Position numbers and translations under genes: made by a program. Shown here piece after piece: positions 5,297 to 13,239 of a stretch of 64,000 nt of DNA. Numbering within the stretch: position 1 is the first letter of the stretch; every line of letters begins with the position of its first letter. Under the pieces are notes generated by a model. It was given only the letters and a program-made list of their open reading frames with translations. It had not been told where the DNA came from and made no database searches. The DNA lies in NCBI RefSeq assembly GCF_000019905.1, contig NC_010556.1, positions 2,444,001 to 2,508,000 of the forward strand, read 5' to 3'. The stretch comes from Exiguobacterium artemiae 255-15. GTDB lineage: Bacteria > Bacillota > Bacilli > Exiguobacteriales > Exiguobacteriaceae.

Positions 5297-5336
5297 TCGT
5301 TAAAAAAACATCACCGGCTTTAGCGTCGGTGTACAC

Positions 5337-5376
5337 AAAAGAGGAAAACGGACATTTGATCCGTCTTCCTCTTTTT
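5337..5376. terminator. Bidirectional terminator
   Basis: A 16-bp stem with one mismatch (5337-5352 and 5360-5375) closes a 7-base loop, with A4 on the left and T5 on the right. It lies between the converging membrane-protein gene and XRE regulator gene. Confidence 0.85.
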
Positions 5377-5403
5377 GTTTGGCTGAACATCAATTCCGGT
5401 CGT

Positions 5404-6033
5404 TCATTTGCGGTGATAACGTGTTCGGTCAATCTTTCGGCTGAACTCCGTATAACAATCGGTTGTCGTCGTCTCAGTGTCTTCCGTCAGACGGTTGAGG
5501 TATTCATCGAGTTGAAGCATCGTCGGGAGTTTGTCGGCAAACAGTTCAAACGTCTCTGCCGCGTCTTCCCGTTGCAATTCCCCCGCCTCCATGACCGCCT
5601 CCACCAGCTCATGAAAAATCCGTTGTTCCGTGGCACTCATCGTCTGTTCAATCCGTTTGACGTCCTCATCATACATCAAATCAAACAGGCGCATCCGTTC
5701 TTCCAGCTGCTGTTCAATCATCGTTTCGTCTTGTCCCATTGTCTGTTCATACGCCAATCGCATTTCTTCAAGCGGCGTTTTTTCCTGCATGACGAATTTT
5801 AAGGACTCCCCGGTCCAGATATGCCGTGCCAGATAACTGGAATCGATATGCAGGGCTTCCGCCAAGGATTCGATATAAGCTTTTGTCGGATACACTTCGC
5901 TGAGTTCCGTCCGGCGGATGAAATAGGGAGCGACCCCGAGATTGTCCGCTAACTGATCGATGGAGATTCCGGCGCGTTCCCGTAAGATTCGGATGCGGTC
6001 ACCGTATCCCCGGTAAGGTGAATGGTCCAGCAT
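5404..6033 (-). CDS. XRE-family helix-turn-helix regulator with long helical C-terminus
   Basis: Residues 10-60 (YGDRIRILRERAGISIDQLA and onward) form an XRE-type helix-turn-helix, followed by about 140 residues of charged, glutamate-rich helix that may bring about dimerisation or signal sensing. It is the last gene of the bce block, 25 bases after the second BceB permease, and has its own AGGAGGGG ribosome binding site. Being at the end of that operon suggests it responds to the same stress or tunes it, but nothing in the sequence shows the signal. Function in resistance is inferred only from context. Confidence 0.7.
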   Translation of the reverse strand: MLDHSPYRGYGDRIRILRERAGISIDQLADNLGVAPYFIRRTELSEVYPTKAYIESLAEALHIDSSYLARHIWTGESLKFVMQEKTPLEEMRLAYEQTMGQDETMIEQQLEERMRLFDLMYDEDVKRIEQTMSATEQRIFHELVEAVMEAGELQREDAAETFELFADKLPTMLQLDEYLNRLTEDTETTTTDCYTEFSRKIDRTRYHRK

Positions 6034-6058
6034 ATTACCCCTCCTCGCTATGCTATTA

Positions 6059-7993
6059 TCATACCCTCGAATCCGGTATCGGATACATCGAACTTTCGCA
6101 CGATTTTTTTAATAAATAACGCGGATAGCGGACCCATAACGGCAGGATACTGATGAAATAACAGCCGGTGACGATTCCGATCCAGGTGAAGGACAACGGA
6201 AGAAACGGACCGATCTCGAGTCCCCCTTCCGATATGATGACTTGAAAGAGTAACCAGGCATGAAAAATCGAAATAAAGTACGGAACCATCAACACCGTAC
6301 CGTATTTGATGAACAGGAAACGGCGAATGCTCTCTTTACTGAAACCAAGCGCAAACAGGGTCTTCAGCCGTTTTTGTTCACGCTCCGCCGTCATTTGCAT
6401 CCAGACGTGCAGGAAGCTTGCATTGATGACAAACAGCCAGATCGTCAACAGGATGACGACAAACGAGACAAGACGAATGATCCGGATCCCGTCCAGTTTA
6501 TCTTCCGTCTCATTGATCAATTGATAAGGAACCGATGCTTTTTTACCGAGCTCCGTTTTCGATTGGATGTCCCGGACAATCGACATCCAATTTGTCCAAC
6601 GCTCTGTCCCGTAATCGGCGTACGAGGGTGTATCAAAGACACGGATCCGGGCGACCGGACGATTCATCGTCGCAAACGCTCGGTCACTGACGACGAACAA
6701 TGTTTTAATCCGGTCGTTGTATCCGAATAACAGGCCGTGCTCCGCCATTGGTTCTAGCTGATAGCCGGCTTGCTTCATTTCCGCTTTTGCTTTTTTCATC
6801 GTCGGCGTCACTTCCTCGACTTGAACCGGACGGGCCGGAATCATAAACGTCTGTTTGTCCGTCAACAACGTCCGTTGCTCGTAACCCAAATGCTTCATCA
6901 GCTGATTGTAGTCCGACAACGGAATCATGTACCGGCTCTTCCCGCCTTTGAGCCGGACATCCTGCCGGTATTTATCCGGAAACGCTTTTGTCATCGTCCG
7001 TTCCAGAGTCTCCAGACGACCGGACGGAACAGACGATTCCTCGTAATAGACCAGTCCGAACTGATTGTCAGACGAGAGGTCAAACCCGATCATTTGAAAG
7101 ATAAAGATCAGACCGACAGCCGTTAAGGCACAGGAGGTCAAAATCGTCCCCAAGGCAACCAGTGTACTGTTCGTCCGTAATTGAACCGCGATTTCCGAGA
7201 CGATTAACTTGCGTAACGACAACCGGCGGGGCCGGTAGAGTTTGAGCGCCACCGGAATGACGTGGCGGCAGAAAAAGAACGAACCGACGAAGATGATGAA
7301 GGGAAAGACAAATAGAAAATTATCCTGCCGCGTCAATGCCATGAAATAGCCGTAAAACAGGATCAGTACGGCCGTTCCCTGCATCACAAGACCGAACCGG
7401 ACACGAAGCCGGGAACGGGTCCGGACAGGCCGGTCCGGACGGAATCTATAAATCGCGAGGACCGTCGCAATCAACAGCGTCAACATCGCTCCTGCAATCA
7501 ATACTAAAAAAGAAAGAACGGAAAGCTCAATCGTCAGGCGCGGTAAGAACATGACTTTTTCAATCGAAAGTAACATCAGCTTCGTCAGGACAACACCGAG
7601 CGTGATGCCGCCCATAATCGCGAGCCCGCCGACAATCAGGATTTCAATCATAAAATATTTCAGAAAATGTGAAAATCCGCTTCCAAGCGTCCGCATGATC
7701 CGTAAGTCGTTTTTCCGGTGCTCGAGCATCGTATAGGTCGTCGAATAGATGAATAAAATACTGAAAAACAGAATGATGACTTCGGCAATGAACACAAAGA
7801 TCATCGTCAGTTCGATGACCTGATTCAATTGGCTCAGGACTTTGGCGATGTTCTGAAACGATTCACTGACGACGAGATTCCAGTAACTGGTCGCAATCGT
7901 CATCGCGACGATGATCGTTAACGCATAGCCATAATAAAGACGTTGATAACGTCTGATGTTACGTAGGGCGTATTGCAGATAAGTGATGTTCAT
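6059..7993 (-). CDS. bceB: BceB-like antimicrobial-peptide ABC permease (second copy)
   Basis: The 644-aa protein has the BceB layout: an N-terminal helix, FtsX-type helices to about residue 300, a large extracellular domain of about 200 residues (near 310-510), and three final helices. BceB-type permeases bind peptide antibiotics such as bacitracin or lantibiotics bound to lipid II-cycle intermediates, and also signal to the histidine kinase. The gene starts inside the end of its ATPase gene (35-base overlap) with an AGGAGGGG site. It differs clearly from the other BceB protein at 10474-12390, so the two copies are not a recent duplication. Confidence 0.85.
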   Translation of the reverse strand: MNITYLQYALRNIRRYQRLYYGYALTIIVAMTIATSYWNLVVSESFQNIAKVLSQLNQVIELTMIFVFIAEVIILFFSILFIYSTTYTMLEHRKNDLRIMRTLGSGFSHFLKYFMIEILIVGGLAIMGGITLGVVLTKLMLLSIEKVMFLPRLTIELSVLSFLVLIAGAMLTLLIATVLAIYRFRPDRPVRTRSRLRVRFGLVMQGTAVLILFYGYFMALTRQDNFLFVFPFIIFVGSFFFCRHVIPVALKLYRPRRLSLRKLIVSEIAVQLRTNSTLVALGTILTSCALTAVGLIFIFQMIGFDLSSDNQFGLVYYEESSVPSGRLETLERTMTKAFPDKYRQDVRLKGGKSRYMIPLSDYNQLMKHLGYEQRTLLTDKQTFMIPARPVQVEEVTPTMKKAKAEMKQAGYQLEPMAEHGLLFGYNDRIKTLFVVSDRAFATMNRPVARIRVFDTPSYADYGTERWTNWMSIVRDIQSKTELGKKASVPYQLINETEDKLDGIRIIRLVSFVVILLTIWLFVINASFLHVWMQMTAEREQKRLKTLFALGFSKESIRRFLFIKYGTVLMVPYFISIFHAWLLFQVIISEGGLEIGPFLPLSFTWIGIVTGCYFISILPLWVRYPRYLLKKSCESSMYPIPDSRV

Positions 7994-8723
7994 CCCCTCC
8001 TAATAACGAGAGCGATTCGATGACACGCTGGAAAAAGACCCGGCGCGGTTCATCGCGGAACAGTTCCGTCTGAATGCTGCCGTCCTTCAGAAACAGGACA
8101 TGATTGCAATACGAGGCGACCGTCGGATCATGGGTGACGATGACCATCGTCATACCGGCTACATTCAATTCTGCCAGCAACTCCATGACGTGTTTCGTCG
8201 CCTGAAAATCAAGTGCCCCCGTTGGTTCGTCGGCGAGCATCAGACGCGGTGCGTGAATTAAAGCCCGTCCGATGGCCGTCCGTTGCCGTTGCCCGCCCGA
8301 GACCTCGTCGACCTGTTTATCAAGCAACTCATCAATCTGTAACCGTTTTGCGAGATGTTGCATCTCTTCCCGGGCTTCCTTCGTTTTTTTACCGCTGAGC
8401 ATCAAAGGAACAAGTATATTCTCAGCCACCGTCAACGAATCAAGCAGGTTGAATTCCTGAAAGATGATTCCGAGCGTCTCGCGCCGGAAGCGGGTTGTTT
8501 CTTTCCGTTTGAACGTCGCCGTATCGATGCCTTGAATCAAAATCGAGCCCCAACTCGGCTGATCTAGTGTCGCAAGCAGATTGATCAAGGTCGACTTGCC
8601 GCTGCCGGACGGTCCCATGACGGCGACCATCTCCCCTTCTTCCACACGAAAATTGATGTCGGTCAACGGCTGTTCCGTCACTTTTCCGGGATAGACTTTT
8701 CCTAACTGTTTGACTTCAATCAT
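7959..8723 (-). CDS. bceA: BceA-like ABC transporter ATPase (second copy)
   Basis: A 254-aa ATPase with Walker A GPSGSGKST (37-45), the Q-loop in GIIFQEFNLLDSLT, signature VSGGQRQRTAIGRA and Walker B RLMLADEPTGALD. The FNLLD and DEPTGALD forms are typical of the MacB/BceA group. It overlaps the histidine kinase gene upstream by eight bases and the permease gene downstream by 35 bases, so all are translationally coupled. It powers the neighbouring BceB permease. Confidence 0.9.
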   Translation of the reverse strand: MIEVKQLGKVYPGKVTEQPLTDINFRVEEGEMVAVMGPSGSGKSTLINLLATLDQPSWGSILIQGIDTATFKRKETTRFRRETLGIIFQEFNLLDSLTVAENILVPLMLSGKKTKEAREEMQHLAKRLQIDELLDKQVDEVSGGQRQRTAIGRALIHAPRLMLADEPTGALDFQATKHVMELLAELNVAGMTMVIVTHDPTVASYCNHVLFLKDGSIQTELFRDEPRRVFFQRVIESLSLLGGDEHHLSAIRPT

Positions 8724-9708
8724 CTTGTTTCCCTCCTACGAGCGTCAGACGACAGGTCGTCCCGACCCCTTCCGTGCTGTCGAGTTCAATGGTATGGCCG
8801 AGCTTGAGGCAAATCTGACTGACGAAGTACAATCCCATTCCGGTTGATTCGCCGTAACGCCGGCCGTTTTCCCCGGTGAAGAAGGCGTTGAAGACACGCG
8901 GCAGATCGCGTTTCGGTATGCCGACGCCGTCATCTTCAATCGTCAGCACGATTTTCCCCGCTTGTTCGACGGCACGGATATAGACTTCATGTCCGTGACC
9001 GGCCGTGTATTTGACGGCATTCGTCAGCAACTGCAGGACCACAAAACGGAACCACTTGGAGTCGGTATAGATATACAGCTCCGGTGCAAGCTCAAGCTTC
9101 GGGTACACTTTATTTTTAACGAACAGCCGTTTTTCCTGATTGATGATGCTCGTCACTAACGTCCGCAGATTTAGCCGTTCCGCCTTTAAGTCCGTCTCGA
9201 TCGCTTCGAGACGTGACGAATACAACATCTGATCCAGTCCGATCCGCAACCGGTCGACTTCATGGCGTAAGTCCGCCTGGAACTGTTCGCCCGGATGTTC
9301 CAGAATCAACTCGATGACCGACAGCGGCGTCTTCATTTGATGAATCCATTGGTCGACATACCGGTGCCGTTCCTTTTCCTTCCGTCGTTCAGCAAACAAG
9401 CTGTTCCGAAAGACGGTCTGTTGGCGTTCCAAGAAGTGCTCGACGGCTGCTGCCAGCGGTTCGTCACTGTCGGCCCGGATCGGTTCCGCAACCGACTCAA
9501 TCGGTGTCTGCAATCGTTTGAGCAACGGTAACATACTGAAGAAACGGTAACTTAAATAAATCAGCAAGGCGATTGCATTTAAGAGCGCGATGTAAAAAAA
9601 GGCTGCCGGACGATACAGATCGTATAACCACAGGATAAGAAACAAGGCTACCAACTGCCCACTGAAGAACAGAACCCCCGGAATCGCATGTTTAAAGAAA
9701 AGTCTCAT
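8716..9708 (-). CDS. bceS: BceS-like intramembrane-sensing histidine kinase
   Basis: The 330-aa kinase has two transmembrane helices (about 10-29 and 36-56) joined by an extracellular loop of only a few residues, so it cannot bind a ligand outside the cell itself. The phosphoacceptor is His123 in WIHQMKTPLS, followed by the N box LLTNAVKYT and the G boxes. In this family the kinase is switched on by the partner BceB transporter. The start codon overlaps the response regulator stop codon (ATGA). It sits between two transporter pairs, so either or both could be the sensor. Confidence 0.9.
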   Translation of the reverse strand: MRLFFKHAIPGVLFFSGQLVALFLILWLYDLYRPAAFFYIALLNAIALLIYLSYRFFSMLPLLKRLQTPIESVAEPIRADSDEPLAAAVEHFLERQQTVFRNSLFAERRKEKERHRYVDQWIHQMKTPLSVIELILEHPGEQFQADLRHEVDRLRIGLDQMLYSSRLEAIETDLKAERLNLRTLVTSIINQEKRLFVKNKVYPKLELAPELYIYTDSKWFRFVVLQLLTNAVKYTAGHGHEVYIRAVEQAGKIVLTIEDDGVGIPKRDLPRVFNAFFTGENGRRYGESTGMGLYFVSQICLKLGHTIELDSTEGVGTTCRLTLVGGKQDD

Positions 9709-10391
9709 TTGTCGAGGACCAATTTGTAGCCGACTCCCCGAACCGTCTCAAGACCCCCGATGCCGATTTCCGCCAACCGTTTCCGGACACGGGTGATGTT
9801 GACGTTCAGGGTATTTTCATCGACGAACGCTTCATCATCCCAAATCCGTTCCAGCAAGTCACCCCGACTGACGATCCGCGGACTCACCGTCAACAACATC
9901 TCTAAAATCAGTCCTTCTTTTTTCGACAGCTCGATCGATCGGTCCTCGTGCTCGACGATATACCGGTCCAAATATAACGTCAGTCCGTCACGACTGACCG
10001 TCCGCTCGTCACTTTCCTGCGACAATGTCCCGTAAGCGCGTCGAATCTGACTTTTGATTTTCGCGATGACGACGGCTCCCTGGAACGGCTTGACGATGTA
10101 ATCATCCGCGCCGTATTCGAGTGCCATGACTTGATCCATCTCCCCGACCCGGGCCGAGATGAACAGAATCGGTGCCCGCGTCTTCATTCGGAGCTGGCGG
10201 CACCAGTAAAATCCGTCAAACTTCGGTAAATTGACATCAAGCAGGATGACGTCCGGTTGCGTTTCTTCAAATCGAGCGACGACGTCTCCTAATCCATCTT
10301 CATGAATGACGTTAAAATCATACCGTTCCAACAATTCTTTTAATAACAGTGCAATCTGTTGATCGTCTTCTACCAATAAAATCGTTTCCAT
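9705..10391 (-). CDS. bceR: BceR-like response regulator, OmpR family
   Basis: The 228-aa product has a receiver domain with acidic pocket Asp9/Asp10, phosphoacceptor Asp52 (LLDVNLP), Ser79 and Lys101, then a winged-helix DNA-binding domain ending VETVRGVGYKL. I chose the ATG at 10391, where the receiver domain begins; the AAGGAG site is 12 bases upstream, and a TTG next to it is a less likely start. It is preceded by a terminator that separates it from the first permease gene, and it is coupled to the kinase gene. The expected target is the palindrome before the first BceA gene. Confidence 0.9.
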   Translation of the reverse strand: METILLVEDDQQIALLLKELLERYDFNVIHEDGLGDVVARFEETQPDVILLDVNLPKFDGFYWCRQLRMKTRAPILFISARVGEMDQVMALEYGADDYIVKPFQGAVVIAKIKSQIRRAYGTLSQESDERTVSRDGLTLYLDRYIVEHEDRSIELSKKEGLILEMLLTVSPRIVSRGDLLERIWDDEAFVDENTLNVNITRVRKRLAEIGIGGLETVRGVGYKLVLDK

Positions 10392-10427
10392 CTGCAGATT
10401 CAACTCCTTCTTCTTCCATGATACCGA

Positions 10428-10469
10428 ACAAAAAATGGACTGGAAACGATTAATCGTCTCCTGTCCATT
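10428..10469 (-). terminator. Terminator between the first bceAB pair and bceRS
   Basis: On the minus strand a 17-bp stem with two mismatches (10469-10453 and 10450-10434) and a two-base loop is followed by T6. It lies four bases after the first permease stop codon, so the first transporter pair can be transcribed separately, with bceRS-bceAB reached by read-through or by a weak promoter further on. Confidence 0.75.
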
Positions 10470-10473
10470 TACA

Positions 10474-12390
10474 TTAGATGACAATCCGTCGATATGCGCG
10501 TACCGTGACGAGATAGTACACGAGATAAACGACGGTATAACAACCGATTGCAAGCGACATCGGTAACCGTAAATCATAATTTAATAACTTTTCCAGGACC
10601 TGCATCGCAAACAGGCTGTGGACAAGACCGAGCAGATACGGCAGGACGAACATGAATCCGACTGATTGCCGGATGATACCGGTCTGTTCTTGCTGATCGA
10701 CGCCGATTTTTTGGATGATCGTAAACCGTTGTTTCGATTCTTCCGCCTCTGCGAGCATCTTAAAGTAGATGATGGATCCCGTCGCCAGTAAAAAGACGAG
10801 TCCGAGGAATCCGGCGGCAAAGGCAAGCAGACCTGTCGTCGCTGTCGTCATGGCATAGACCGGATAATAAGCGGCCATCTCCGTCTCCGCTTTTTTGCCG
10901 TACAATTGCTCCAGTCGGTCGATCAGTCCGTCATCTGAACGTTCGTTCGAGAACTGATAGTTTGTCAGCATCGCTGCTTTTTCCGGCATCATGGCAAAGA
11001 CATCATCCGAAACGGCAAAAGCCAGCCGTTTTTTCGCATAGAGTTGAGTGATTGGTAAATTCGTCGCACCGGTAATCCGAAAGGACGAGTGATCGTCTTT
11101 AAACGTCACGCCCACCGGTGACTTGACCGATTCCTTCAGCAAATCGTTCCCTTTGAACGTCTCAAGCACGATTGCTTCACCGGCTCCCGGTTCCGGCAAC
11201 TGCTTCTTCCCGTTGCTTTTGGCCAACTTCTGATAGTCGGAATAACTGATGTAGCTGAACTGTCCCGGCTCGCCGTCAAATCCGAATGTCTGATAGGACA
11301 TCGTAAACGACAACGGATTTGGTAACTCCTTCAATGGATGATTCACCGTTTTGACGTTGACCATCGTCCGCGATTCAATCGTTTGGTCGGATGACCGAAT
11401 TAATTTTTCGGCTGCCTGTTGCTGGCTTGCAATCGATAAACTATATGGCATCTGTTCCTCGACTGTTCGGTCAATATAATAATAGATTGACGTCGCGGTT
11501 CCGACCGTCGTCAAGGTGACGGCCGTGATGACGGTAATCGTCGACAACATGACGGCATTTGATTTAATCCGCGACAGCAACTGTCCGTGTAAAATCAGGT
11601 TCGTACCGCGATAATGGCGACCACGTTTGCTGAGGAGACGGAGTAAAAAAATCGTGAAATAGCTCATCGTACCGAACGTTCCGACGATGATGCAGAGCAT
11701 CAAGACCGGCGCAACAATCGTAAAGTGTGCGAGCAACGGTTCCCCGGTCAAATAATACCCGACACCAATCAACAGGACGGAAACAAGAGCCAGGACCGGA
11801 TGGACTTTCGGAATCGTTTCGACCTGCTGTTTCGCCTTAAACAACTCGATCAGGGTAAACCGATAAATCGTCCGGGCTGACCGGAGCGCAATCACAAGGA
11901 AGATTGTCAAAAAGACGACAACCGTCTGACCGATTGCTCCGGCATTGATGGAGAAATCGGCTTCAATCGTCATTCCCATGACGTAGGCCAACAGTTGGAC
12001 AAAGTATTTTGAGGCAATCGTTCCGAGTAAAACACCGATCAGTAGACCGATCAGTCCGTACCCCATCGTCTCAAGAAACAGCAACTTGGCAATCTGTTGA
12101 CGTTCGAGACCGAGTAACGCATACAGACCAATTTCCTGTTTCCGGCGCCGCAGGAAAAAGTCACTCGAATACCAGATGAAGACGGCGGAAAAAAGAGCCA
12201 GGATGACGCTTGAACCGGTAAAGACCGTCCCGAGTTTCCCGTATAGTTCATTGGCTTGTAACATCGCCTCATTGGAACGGATGGCTAAAAACGTATAATA
12301 AATCAAAATCGCGAACGTAACTGCGCCGAGATACATCATGTTTTGCCGGATGTTTTTTAAATTCCGGAAAGCTAATTTAAACAAGTTCAC
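10474..12390 (-). CDS. bceB: BceB-like antimicrobial-peptide ABC permease (first copy)
   Basis: A 638-aa FtsX/BceB-type permease with about ten helices and an extracellular domain of roughly 200 residues between about 300 and 510. I chose the GTG at 12388-12390 (MNLFKLAFRNLKN), because a CGGAGGTG ribosome binding site precedes it at the right distance and BceB proteins start with a similar LxLRNLK helix; an upstream GTG at 12411 is less well placed. It overlaps its ATPase gene by 14 bases. Its job may be sensing, detoxification or both. It is one of two non-identical BceB proteins in the locus. Confidence 0.85.
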   Translation of the reverse strand: MNLFKLAFRNLKNIRQNMMYLGAVTFAILIYYTFLAIRSNEAMLQANELYGKLGTVFTGSSVILALFSAVFIWYSSDFFLRRRKQEIGLYALLGLERQQIAKLLFLETMGYGLIGLLIGVLLGTIASKYFVQLLAYVMGMTIEADFSINAGAIGQTVVVFLTIFLVIALRSARTIYRFTLIELFKAKQQVETIPKVHPVLALVSVLLIGVGYYLTGEPLLAHFTIVAPVLMLCIIVGTFGTMSYFTIFLLRLLSKRGRHYRGTNLILHGQLLSRIKSNAVMLSTITVITAVTLTTVGTATSIYYYIDRTVEEQMPYSLSIASQQQAAEKLIRSSDQTIESRTMVNVKTVNHPLKELPNPLSFTMSYQTFGFDGEPGQFSYISYSDYQKLAKSNGKKQLPEPGAGEAIVLETFKGNDLLKESVKSPVGVTFKDDHSSFRITGATNLPITQLYAKKRLAFAVSDDVFAMMPEKAAMLTNYQFSNERSDDGLIDRLEQLYGKKAETEMAAYYPVYAMTTATTGLLAFAAGFLGLVFLLATGSIIYFKMLAEAEESKQRFTIIQKIGVDQQEQTGIIRQSVGFMFVLPYLLGLVHSLFAMQVLEKLLNYDLRLPMSLAIGCYTVVYLVYYLVTVRAYRRIVI

Positions 12391-13138
12391 GGACCGCACC
12401 TCCGAGTTCACGTTGGACTTCCATGATCTGTTCGAAAAACTCCTTGCGTGTCCCGAACTGGTGAATTTCCCGGAACAATTCTCCGTCTTTGACGAACAGC
12501 ACCCGTTCCGCGTACGATGCGGTCACCGGATCGTGGGTCACCATTAAAATCGTTGCACCCTGTTCATTCAAGCCGACCATGGCTTCAAGCAGACCGGTCG
12601 CTGATTTCGAGTCGAGTGCTCCGGTCGGCTCATCCGCCAAGATCAGTGACGGCTGATGAACGATGGCGCGTGCAGCAGCTGTCCGTTGCTTTTGACCTCC
12701 CGACAGTTCAGACGGCCGTTTTGCGAGCAGATCCTCAATTCCAAGCTCCCGGGCGACGGATGTGACCCGGACGAGAATATCGGCTTTCGGCATGTGTTGT
12801 AACGCCAGCGGTAAGGCAATGTTTTCTTCGACCGTCATCGTGTCGAGCAGGTTAAAGTCTTGAAAAATAAATCCGAGCTGTTCCCGCCGAAACCGGGCCA
12901 ACTGTTTTTCTTTCATCCCCGTCACGTCTTCTCCATTGATATGAATTGTCCCATCCGTCGGTTGGTCAATGGTCGACAACAAATTTAATAAGGTCGACTT
13001 CCCTGCGCCTGACGGTCCCATGATACTGACGAACTCTGCGTCGTGAATCGTCAGTGTCGTCGGTCGGAGCGCCTCGTGCCGTGCGTTTTTCGTATGGTAG
13101 ACTTTCGTGATCTGTTCTGCGTGTAAGATGGCTTTCAT
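12377..13138 (-). CDS. bceA: BceA-like ABC transporter ATPase (first copy)
   Basis: The 253-aa ATPase has Walker A GPSGAGKST (41-49), FIFQDFNLLDTMT, signature LSGGQKQRTAAARA and Walker B LILADEPTGALD. It is the first gene of the bce locus and follows a promoter with a BceR-like palindrome. It differs in many positions from the ATPase at 7959-8723, so each permease probably has its own ATPase. Confidence 0.9.
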   Translation of the reverse strand: MKAILHAEQITKVYHTKNARHEALRPTTLTIHDAEFVSIMGPSGAGKSTLLNLLSTIDQPTDGTIHINGEDVTGMKEKQLARFRREQLGFIFQDFNLLDTMTVEENIALPLALQHMPKADILVRVTSVARELGIEDLLAKRPSELSGGQKQRTAAARAIVHQPSLILADEPTGALDSKSATGLLEAMVGLNEQGATILMVTHDPVTASYAERVLFVKDGELFREIHQFGTRKEFFEQIMEVQRELGGAVRELV

Positions 13139-13173
13139 GATGTGTTTCCTCCCGTATTCTTGATCTTGCTGTC

Positions 13174-13239
13174 AGTATACCGAGCAATCCGTCTTTCAAA
13201 GAATCGGTCAGACTTTCATTCATCTTACAAAATAGTAAG
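13174..13239 (-). promoter_or_regulatory. Probable BceR-activated promoter
   Basis: On the minus strand a good -10 box TATACT (13179-13174) has no recognisable -35 at the right distance, as expected for an activator-dependent promoter. Upstream, at 13224-13239, is CTTACAAAATAGTAAG, a palindrome fitting the BceR-type pattern TNACA-N4-TGTAA with one mismatch. It is therefore the likely target of the response regulator encoded in the same locus. Confidence 0.6.

Follow-up and report, generated by a model that had tools for sequence, protein, structure and literature searches.

How a BceAB-type transporter can sense an antibiotic and also protect against it is the question raised by a locus in which one kinase lies between two such transporters. 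We analyzed a 64,000-nucleotide (nt) stretch of the Exiguobacterium artemiae 255-15 genome (contig NC_010556.1, positions 2,444,001 to 2,508,000; here called the window), in which positions 5404 to 13239 carry, 5' to 3' on the minus strand, A1-B1, a terminator, and R-S-A2-B2-X (i.e., an ATPase-permease pair, a response regulator, a kinase, a second ATPase-permease pair, and an XRE-type regulator). The two jobs are apparently split here between two separately descended transporters. We consider it probable that the locus is a split-function Bce module, in which A2B2 and S sense and R induces A1B1 as the effector. We regard it as real and genus-wide, a version of a known split sensor/effector circuit confined to one locus, and rare among the loci read elsewhere.

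Layout of the locus

The families found by domain scan (i.e., ABC_tran, FtsX, Response_reg with Trans_reg_C, HATPase_c, and HTH_31) and the coordinates bear out the order bceA-bceB, terminator, bceRS-bceA-bceB, XRE given by a first-pass annotation of the sequence. All features described here are on the minus strand. A1 (12377 to 13138; 253 amino acids [aa]) and A2 (7959 to 8723; 254 aa; likely part of the sensor) are BceA-type ATPases (PF00005) with Walker A, signature, Walker B, and THD motifs. The likely effector permease, B1 (10474 to 12411; 645 aa), is BceB-type (PsdB, E = 1.1e-60; BceB, E = 3e-50), and the likely sensor permease, B2 (6059 to 7993; 644 aa; PF02687), is a highly diverged member of the type (PsdB, E = 1.9e-15). 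R (9705 to 10391, which is shorter than its frame in the list of open reading frames [ORFs]; 228 aa; PF00072 and PF00486) is an OmpR-type response regulator. S (8716 to 9708; 330 aa) is a BceS-like intramembrane-sensing kinase, as judged from its HATPase_c domain, the motif HQMKTP at residue 123, and the kinase tree. Four of the six junctions overlap (A1/B1, 35 nt; R/S, 4 nt; S/A2, 8 nt; A2/B2, 35 nt) and two have gaps (B1-R, 82 nt; B2-X, 25 nt); the annotation was right that genes overlap, although its phrase "nearly all genes overlapping" was slightly generous.

Operator-type site before A1

A candidate BceR-type operator, the inverted repeat CTTACTATTTTGTAAG, lies upstream of A1 at positions 13224 to 13239. 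Its edge coincides with the end coordinate 13239 of the first-pass annotation, in which the repeat itself was absent. Within it, CTTACYRTTTTGTAAG is constant in 18/18 genus members, with variable flanks. The window copy and its neighboring bases fit AnnTTACnAnnnnGTnAG, the consensus for target promoters of Bce-like regulators in Lacticaseibacillus paracasei (PMC10858260; this and the other papers are cited for the sections available to us), and most of the other genus copies are off at one or two positions. In a standard Bce module, the regulator's site precedes the kinase-linked transporter; here, an operator-type site was found before A1 (18/18) and not before A2 (0/18), the start of which lies inside S. 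As far as sequence can indicate, the locus contains a second BceAB-type transporter bearing the regulator's site, as a split module should.

We also counted TKAC-N6-GTNA within 250 nt of A genes in loci grouped by kinase score relative to the window's S (the rows include L049 and the sister-genus loci). The site was found before 35 of 49 A genes at scores of at least 235, 7 of 11 at 190 to 235, 19 of 25 below 190, and 4 of 21 in loci with no scored kinase (background, 3.2% of random windows). The sites were of the TTAC type in 34/35 cases in the first class, of the TGAC type in 7/7 cases in the second, and TGAC (17/19) or TTAC (2/19) in the third. The difference between the first and third classes gave a Fisher P value of 6e-11, which is optimistic because the loci are related. 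L095, with a kinase split by a stop and a TGAC site, was counted in the low class, though its permease falls in the S-linked group. By descent, A1B1 belong with the class below 190 and with orphan pumps, yet their site is of the TTAC type, which suggests that they are wired to this R. The A genes of the AnrAB clade in L088 and L089 likewise have a TTAC site.

Downstream of the repeat, TATACT (13174 to 13179) may be the -10 element of an A1 promoter; it was assigned by eye, with TANACT in 18/18 genus members and no good -35 element seen. Elsewhere in the genome, a second full CTTACTGTTTTGTAAG-ATGAA site (L194; G000:C1:1312446-1312459) lies near a transposase-like ORF (IS605 OrfB type by eye), with no clear target.

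Predicted terminator and putative promoter between B1 and R

An intrinsic terminator hairpin is predicted at 10433 to 10470, with a T run to about 10430 (-21.1 kcal/mol; z = -6.39; none of 200 shuffles was as good). All 18 genus members have a predicted hairpin and T run at the corresponding position (-12.5 to -19.6 kcal/mol, for shorter stretches), and in two other lineages of the genus the values are -16.1 kcal/mol (z = -4.16) and -14.3 kcal/mol (z = -2.88; 2 of 200 shuffles as good). This agrees with the earlier suggestion that a terminator could separate the expression of the two pairs. A scan gave a promoter-like TTTCCA-N17-TATCAT for the R operon at 10418 to 10446, the first hexamer of which lies in the 3' arm of the terminator. 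We call it a putative promoter because of its conservation (TTTYCA and TATSAT in 18/18); the terminator and the R promoter thus appear to be superimposed.

Separate descent of the two transporters

Trees were built for the ATPases, permeases, and kinases without 14 genus near-copies, three duplicate Listeria loci, and L105; the filler regions L146 and L186 were excluded. For the mixture-model trees, we selected by hand 51 of the 114 permeases and 50 of the 111 ATPases; the loci on A1B1's side were likewise hand-picked, from matches to the B1 profile. In the quick permease tree (114 rows), B1 falls in a 50-row clade (support, 100) together with orphan pumps, Listeria permeases resembling AnrB and VirB, and loci with the other type of kinase, while B2 stands beside S-linked permeases (98) on a branch of 2.9. 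B1 keeps its place in the AnrAB/orphan clade in the mixture-model tree (51 rows; 100/100). The mixture-model ATPase tree places A1 in the AnrAB/orphan clade (100/99) and A2 with ATPases that lie beside S-like kinases (98/92), and the kinase tree places S inside the S-like kinase clade (99). Thus, A2 matches S in clade and A1B1 do not; B2 taken by itself has no stable place, and the matching rule has exceptions in the sample. The description of one kinase between two diverged transporters is borne out by these trees. Under the model used, a tandem duplication was rejected, as approximately unbiased (AU) tests do not allow the two transporters of the genus to be joined (P = 0.00214 for A; P = 0.00577 for B).

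In the sister genus g2, the B1 profile (E = 1e-70) has matches in 11 of 14 genomes. The four g2 loci that we fetched (L171 to L174) carry orphan AB pairs of the AnrAB clade that are not the closest relatives of A1B1.

Distribution within and outside the genus

Of 19 Exiguobacterium genomes, 18 contain an S ortholog (>600 bits) and 18 contain B1; the genome that lacks the S ortholog, G005, contains just a remote kinase (80 bits). The order PTS-A1-B1-R-S-A2-B2-X, where PTS denotes a phosphotransferase system gene, is identical in the window and 17 fetched loci, with near-constant spacing in the block. Over these 17 loci, identity to the window is 91 to 99% for A2, 88 to 99% for R, 82 to 96% for A1, 77 to 96% for S, 78 to 98% for X, 78 to 94% for B1, and 67 to 92% for B2. 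The layout is therefore the form of the genus and not an oddity. The first-pass annotation had implied an oddity and had named, beforehand, an arrangement common to the genus as a result that would count against it; that part of it falls.

Scanning named genomes with S gave eight loci, all in Exiguobacterium (including E. antarcticum, E. undae, and E. indicum), and no named relative in another genus was among the S matches of that scan. Among 299 sampled genomes of the class, 13 genus members matched the B2 profile at E = 1e-10, with none listed without a match, and eight partial matches came from elsewhere (E = 9e-11 to 3e-21). At that threshold the profile matched 0 of 14 genomes of g2, and a search of plasmids for B2 gave no match.

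For a survey outside the genus, we read 59 kinase-matched loci from 52 genomes of 41 other genera in the 299-genome sample. We chose them by hand (i.e., nonrandomly) among the kinase matches listed, taking one or a few in each genus, and some reach contig ends. One permease was present in 52 loci, two in 5, and none in 2 (L105 and L137). A second AB pair beside one kinase was seen in 2 of the 59 loci, L088 and L089, both of genus g13; most of the remaining loci are ordered R-S-A-B. The statement that such transporters usually lie in separate loci agrees with this count among chosen loci and with PMC7828314, PMC6291627, and PMC10858260. A literature search, which did not include the coevolution survey of Dintner et al. 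(2011), returned nothing on BceAB in Exiguobacterium.

Several other arrangements were noted. L111 (G290:C35) has two whole RS-AB modules on opposite strands, about 4.6 kb apart; L117 and L134 read R-S-A-B-B (i.e., a second permease without a second ATPase behind one kinase); and L087 and L120 read A-B-R-S, the regulator genes there following their single transporter, which is of the S-linked group. One genus member has a second, ordinary one-transporter R-S-A-B module with the other kinase type (L049; G014:C1:1403355-1420311). A Bacillus arachidis plasmid (L148; NZ_CP127373.1) carries two tandem AB pairs, both preceded by TTAC-type sites, and no kinase was found in their vicinity; the first pair groups weakly with A1B1 (88 and 83 in the quick trees) on a long branch.

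Features of the kinase, permeases, and ATPases

The hydrophobic windows of S are confined to residues 8 to 63, in keeping with the two membrane helices and the absence of an extracellular sensor domain that characterize Bce-type kinases. Both permeases combine FtsX with a large extracellular domain, as stretches free of membrane windows run from about residue 305 to 529 in B1 and from about 303 to 504 in B2; the extracellular domain of Bce permeases is given as approximately 200 to 250 aa (PMC5786555). The OmpR-type regulator and the BceA-type ATPases with their motifs are likewise as expected of Bce modules. The structure of B2 was modeled from a 64-row alignment (predicted local distance difference test [pLDDT] score, 75.7), a 10-row model being poor (pLDDT, 56.7), and BceB chains rank first among the solved structures that match the model (Foldseek E = 4.8e-17; Z = 27.2, 575 residues, 5.3 Å). 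By its FtsX domain, its match to PsdB, and its predicted fold, B2 is a BceB-type protein despite its divergence. The structure of a small lipoprotein, 4noh, is similar to the predicted extracellular domain of B2 (residues 312 to 496; Z = 10.0, 148 residues). L147 has a protein of the YxeA family behind a B1-like transporter; a tie to this resemblance is only a guess.

When B1 was searched against its own genome (E = 0.001), it was the sole match. The genome has seven FtsX matches: one each in B1 and B2, two in a single 1,241-aa frame, and three in frames of 484, 344, and 333 aa. B1 and B2 are therefore its only FtsX proteins of BceB size. Identification of S as the kinase of a SapRS system was rejected, since S scores 159 bits against a curated SapS cutoff of 550. 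Five other scanned kinases, of both types, score 197 to 298 bits, above S yet below the cutoff. We take SapS to be an Enterococcus faecalis kinase.

The XRE gene and the history of the locus

X (5404 to 6033; 209 aa; PF13560 and PF01381) is an XRE-type regulator and is followed by a terminator hairpin (5335 to 5385; -24.4 kcal/mol; z = -6.43). All 14 sampled sister-genus genomes contain a relative of X, and none of them has a BceS match at E = 1e-45. In G005 and five fetched sister-genus genomes, the region reads esterase-like, glyoxalase-like, ABC pair, small membrane protein, X, PTS IIA, and M3 peptidase (names by eye). No bce genes were found between X and the PTS gene in these six genomes, where the two genes adjoin. 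We rejected an origin of X as part of the module, as X adjoins the PTS gene in genomes without the six bce genes; X is probably a resident gene, next to which the bce genes came to lie. The first-pass statement that an XRE gene ends the block thus holds for position but not for membership of the module by origin. In a tree of three flanking proteins, the 18 carriers form one clade (97/100), with G005 as its sister. A single gain on the stem of the carriers is the simplest history, an older presence requiring at least two losses. A hairpin also lies between the PTS gene and A1 (-15.4 kcal/mol; z = -3.04).

DNA in the last codons of B2 (6058 to 6098), a possible X promoter, is conserved (fraction of identical codons, 0.886 over the last 12 versus 0.548 over the gene). 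In G005, GGGTATAAT lies just before X, and in the window GGGTATGAT straddles the B2 stop. Given this conserved end and these two sequences, X probably keeps a promoter of its own within the end of B2.

Discussion

On the basis of what is known of these families, A2B2 and the intramembrane kinase S would form the sensor: a peptide antibiotic that targets the lipid II cycle would cause A2B2 to make S phosphorylate R, and R would bind the repeat at 13224 to 13239 and induce A1B1. A1B1 would be the protective transporter, acting by target protection or by removal. The terminator and the overlapping promoter would keep R-S-A2-B2 at a steady level, with A1B1 being induced. Roles, signal flow, and substrate in this scheme come from the families; gene content, the descent of the ATPases and B1, the position and conservation of the site, and the predicted terminator were computed. 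The sensor-plus-pump reading of the first-pass annotation gains support from the trees and from the placement of the putative operator. A stricter version, in which A2B2 only signals, is quite possible, although we lean slightly against it. In that version, the pump role passed to A1B1, and A2B2 lost its own inducible promoter and became translationally coupled to the kinase, with its permease diverging to a far greater extent than the relatives of that permease. If it were true, the locus would represent a natural, genus-wide separation of Bce sensing from protection, with an AnrAB-type pump of another clade brought under the operator of the regulator.

Several observations weigh against the proposed division of labor between A2B2 and A1B1. 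The mixture-model permease tree leaves B2 outside both groups, on a branch of 5.3; with its placement unstable, the kinship of B2 with S rests on A2 and gene linkage. The trees had been seen before the AU tests were run, and long branches are a further reason for caution. Seven loci with S-clade kinases of middling score (L134 to L136, L138, L140, L144, and L145) have transporters on A1B1's side; the site is of the TGAC type in six of these and is absent from the seventh. With at most one mismatch, the operator pattern occurs 32 times genome-wide versus 37 times for the reversed control (3 occurrences are exact), so that the argument is one of conservation and place and not of the pattern. Two further exact operator-like sites in the genome have no obvious target. 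Promoter-like sites are not above chance (11 found versus 10.3 expected).

In Bacillus subtilis-like modules, moreover, the kinase-linked transporter both senses and protects (PMC10858260 and PMC5786555), and A2B2 could do the same. A2B2 would then be an ordinary sense-and-protect transporter to which A1B1 adds a second spectrum or more capacity, with one kinase serving both. We think this rather unlikely. The ATPase motifs of A2 are present, and the order seen most often in the loci read from other genera is R-S-A-B with one transporter; however, A2 lacks the site found before 35 of the 49 A genes in the high-scoring class, the S/A2 overlap leaves A2B2 no room for a promoter of its own, and B2 is unusually diverged. 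We judge it very unlikely that the roles are reversed, with A1B1 as sensor or cosensor for S and A2B2 as the pump. A1B1 does precede R, as the lone transporters of L087 and L120 do (though the permease there belongs to the S-linked group), and some S-clade kinases elsewhere adjoin transporters of A1B1's side; against this, the clade of A1 and B1 pairs with other kinases or with none, and the gene overlapping S is A2.

That an orphan pump merely came to lie beside an RS-AB module, with no working link, strikes us as highly improbable. Where a locus has no scored kinase, an operator-like site precedes only 4 of 21 A genes, and pumps of this kind therefore need no such regulator, but both the order and the site type of S-like kinases are kept in 18/18 genus members, and a similar pairing, with the pairs divergent, occurs in another genus (L088 and L089). 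A tandem duplication of the transporters within the genus has adjacency in its favor and both AU tests against it; its probability seems close to negligible. We retain sensing by A2B2 and S with induction of A1B1 as the probable reading. The locus also gives a hint as to how such circuits may be assembled: its pump belongs to one clade, the operator type before that pump goes with the regulators of another, and a second genus has a similar pairing. In this small, genus-wide locus of an environmental genus, the two transporters could be removed one at a time, with one promoter as the readout.

Comparison with known systems

The closest parallel is VirAB-VirRS-AnrAB of Listeria monocytogenes, in which VirAB senses and AnrAB protects under one kinase and the promoter of the protecting transporter has the regulator's site (PMC7828314). 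Unlike the genes here, the Listeria anrAB genes have no adjoining kinase gene, and both Listeria permeases belong to B1's clade, whereas the Exiguobacterium transporters differ in clade and lie together in one locus. B1's best Listeria match (32.8%) lies beside hemQ; we take it to be AnrB from the gene order, and the Listeria permease treated as VirB was likewise presumed from gene order. In Staphylococcus aureus, BraDE senses and contacts the kinase and VraDE detoxifies, an activated mutant showing a 64-fold increase for vraD and a 2.8-fold increase for braD (PMC6291627). By analogy, its BraDE-BraRS (NsaRS)-VraDE system resembles the proposed circuit in having a sensing transporter and a strongly induced protecting one, the members lying outside our trees. 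In S. aureus, braDE is linked to the genes of the kinase, with vraDE at a separate place in the genome; derAB of L. paracasei likewise lies apart. In L. paracasei, the target promoters of the ApsRSAB and DerAB system share the consensus AnnTTACnAnnnnGTnAG that the window site fits (PMC10858260).

The protein families are those of B. subtilis BceRS-BceAB, and the predicted fold of B2 matches BceB (Z = 27.2), but in B. subtilis a single transporter, BceAB, does both jobs (PMC10858260 and PMC5786555). Genus g13 (L088 and L089) is similar to Exiguobacterium in having an AB pair of the AnrAB clade beside an RS-AB module with an S-like kinase and TTAC-type sites, and differs in that the extra pair is divergent and a site precedes both A genes. 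Our best reading, by analogy with Listeria, is that the Exiguobacterium circuit would be the VirAB-VirRS-AnrAB logic packed into one locus, a single-locus split that departs from the known systems, which are normally spread over separate loci.

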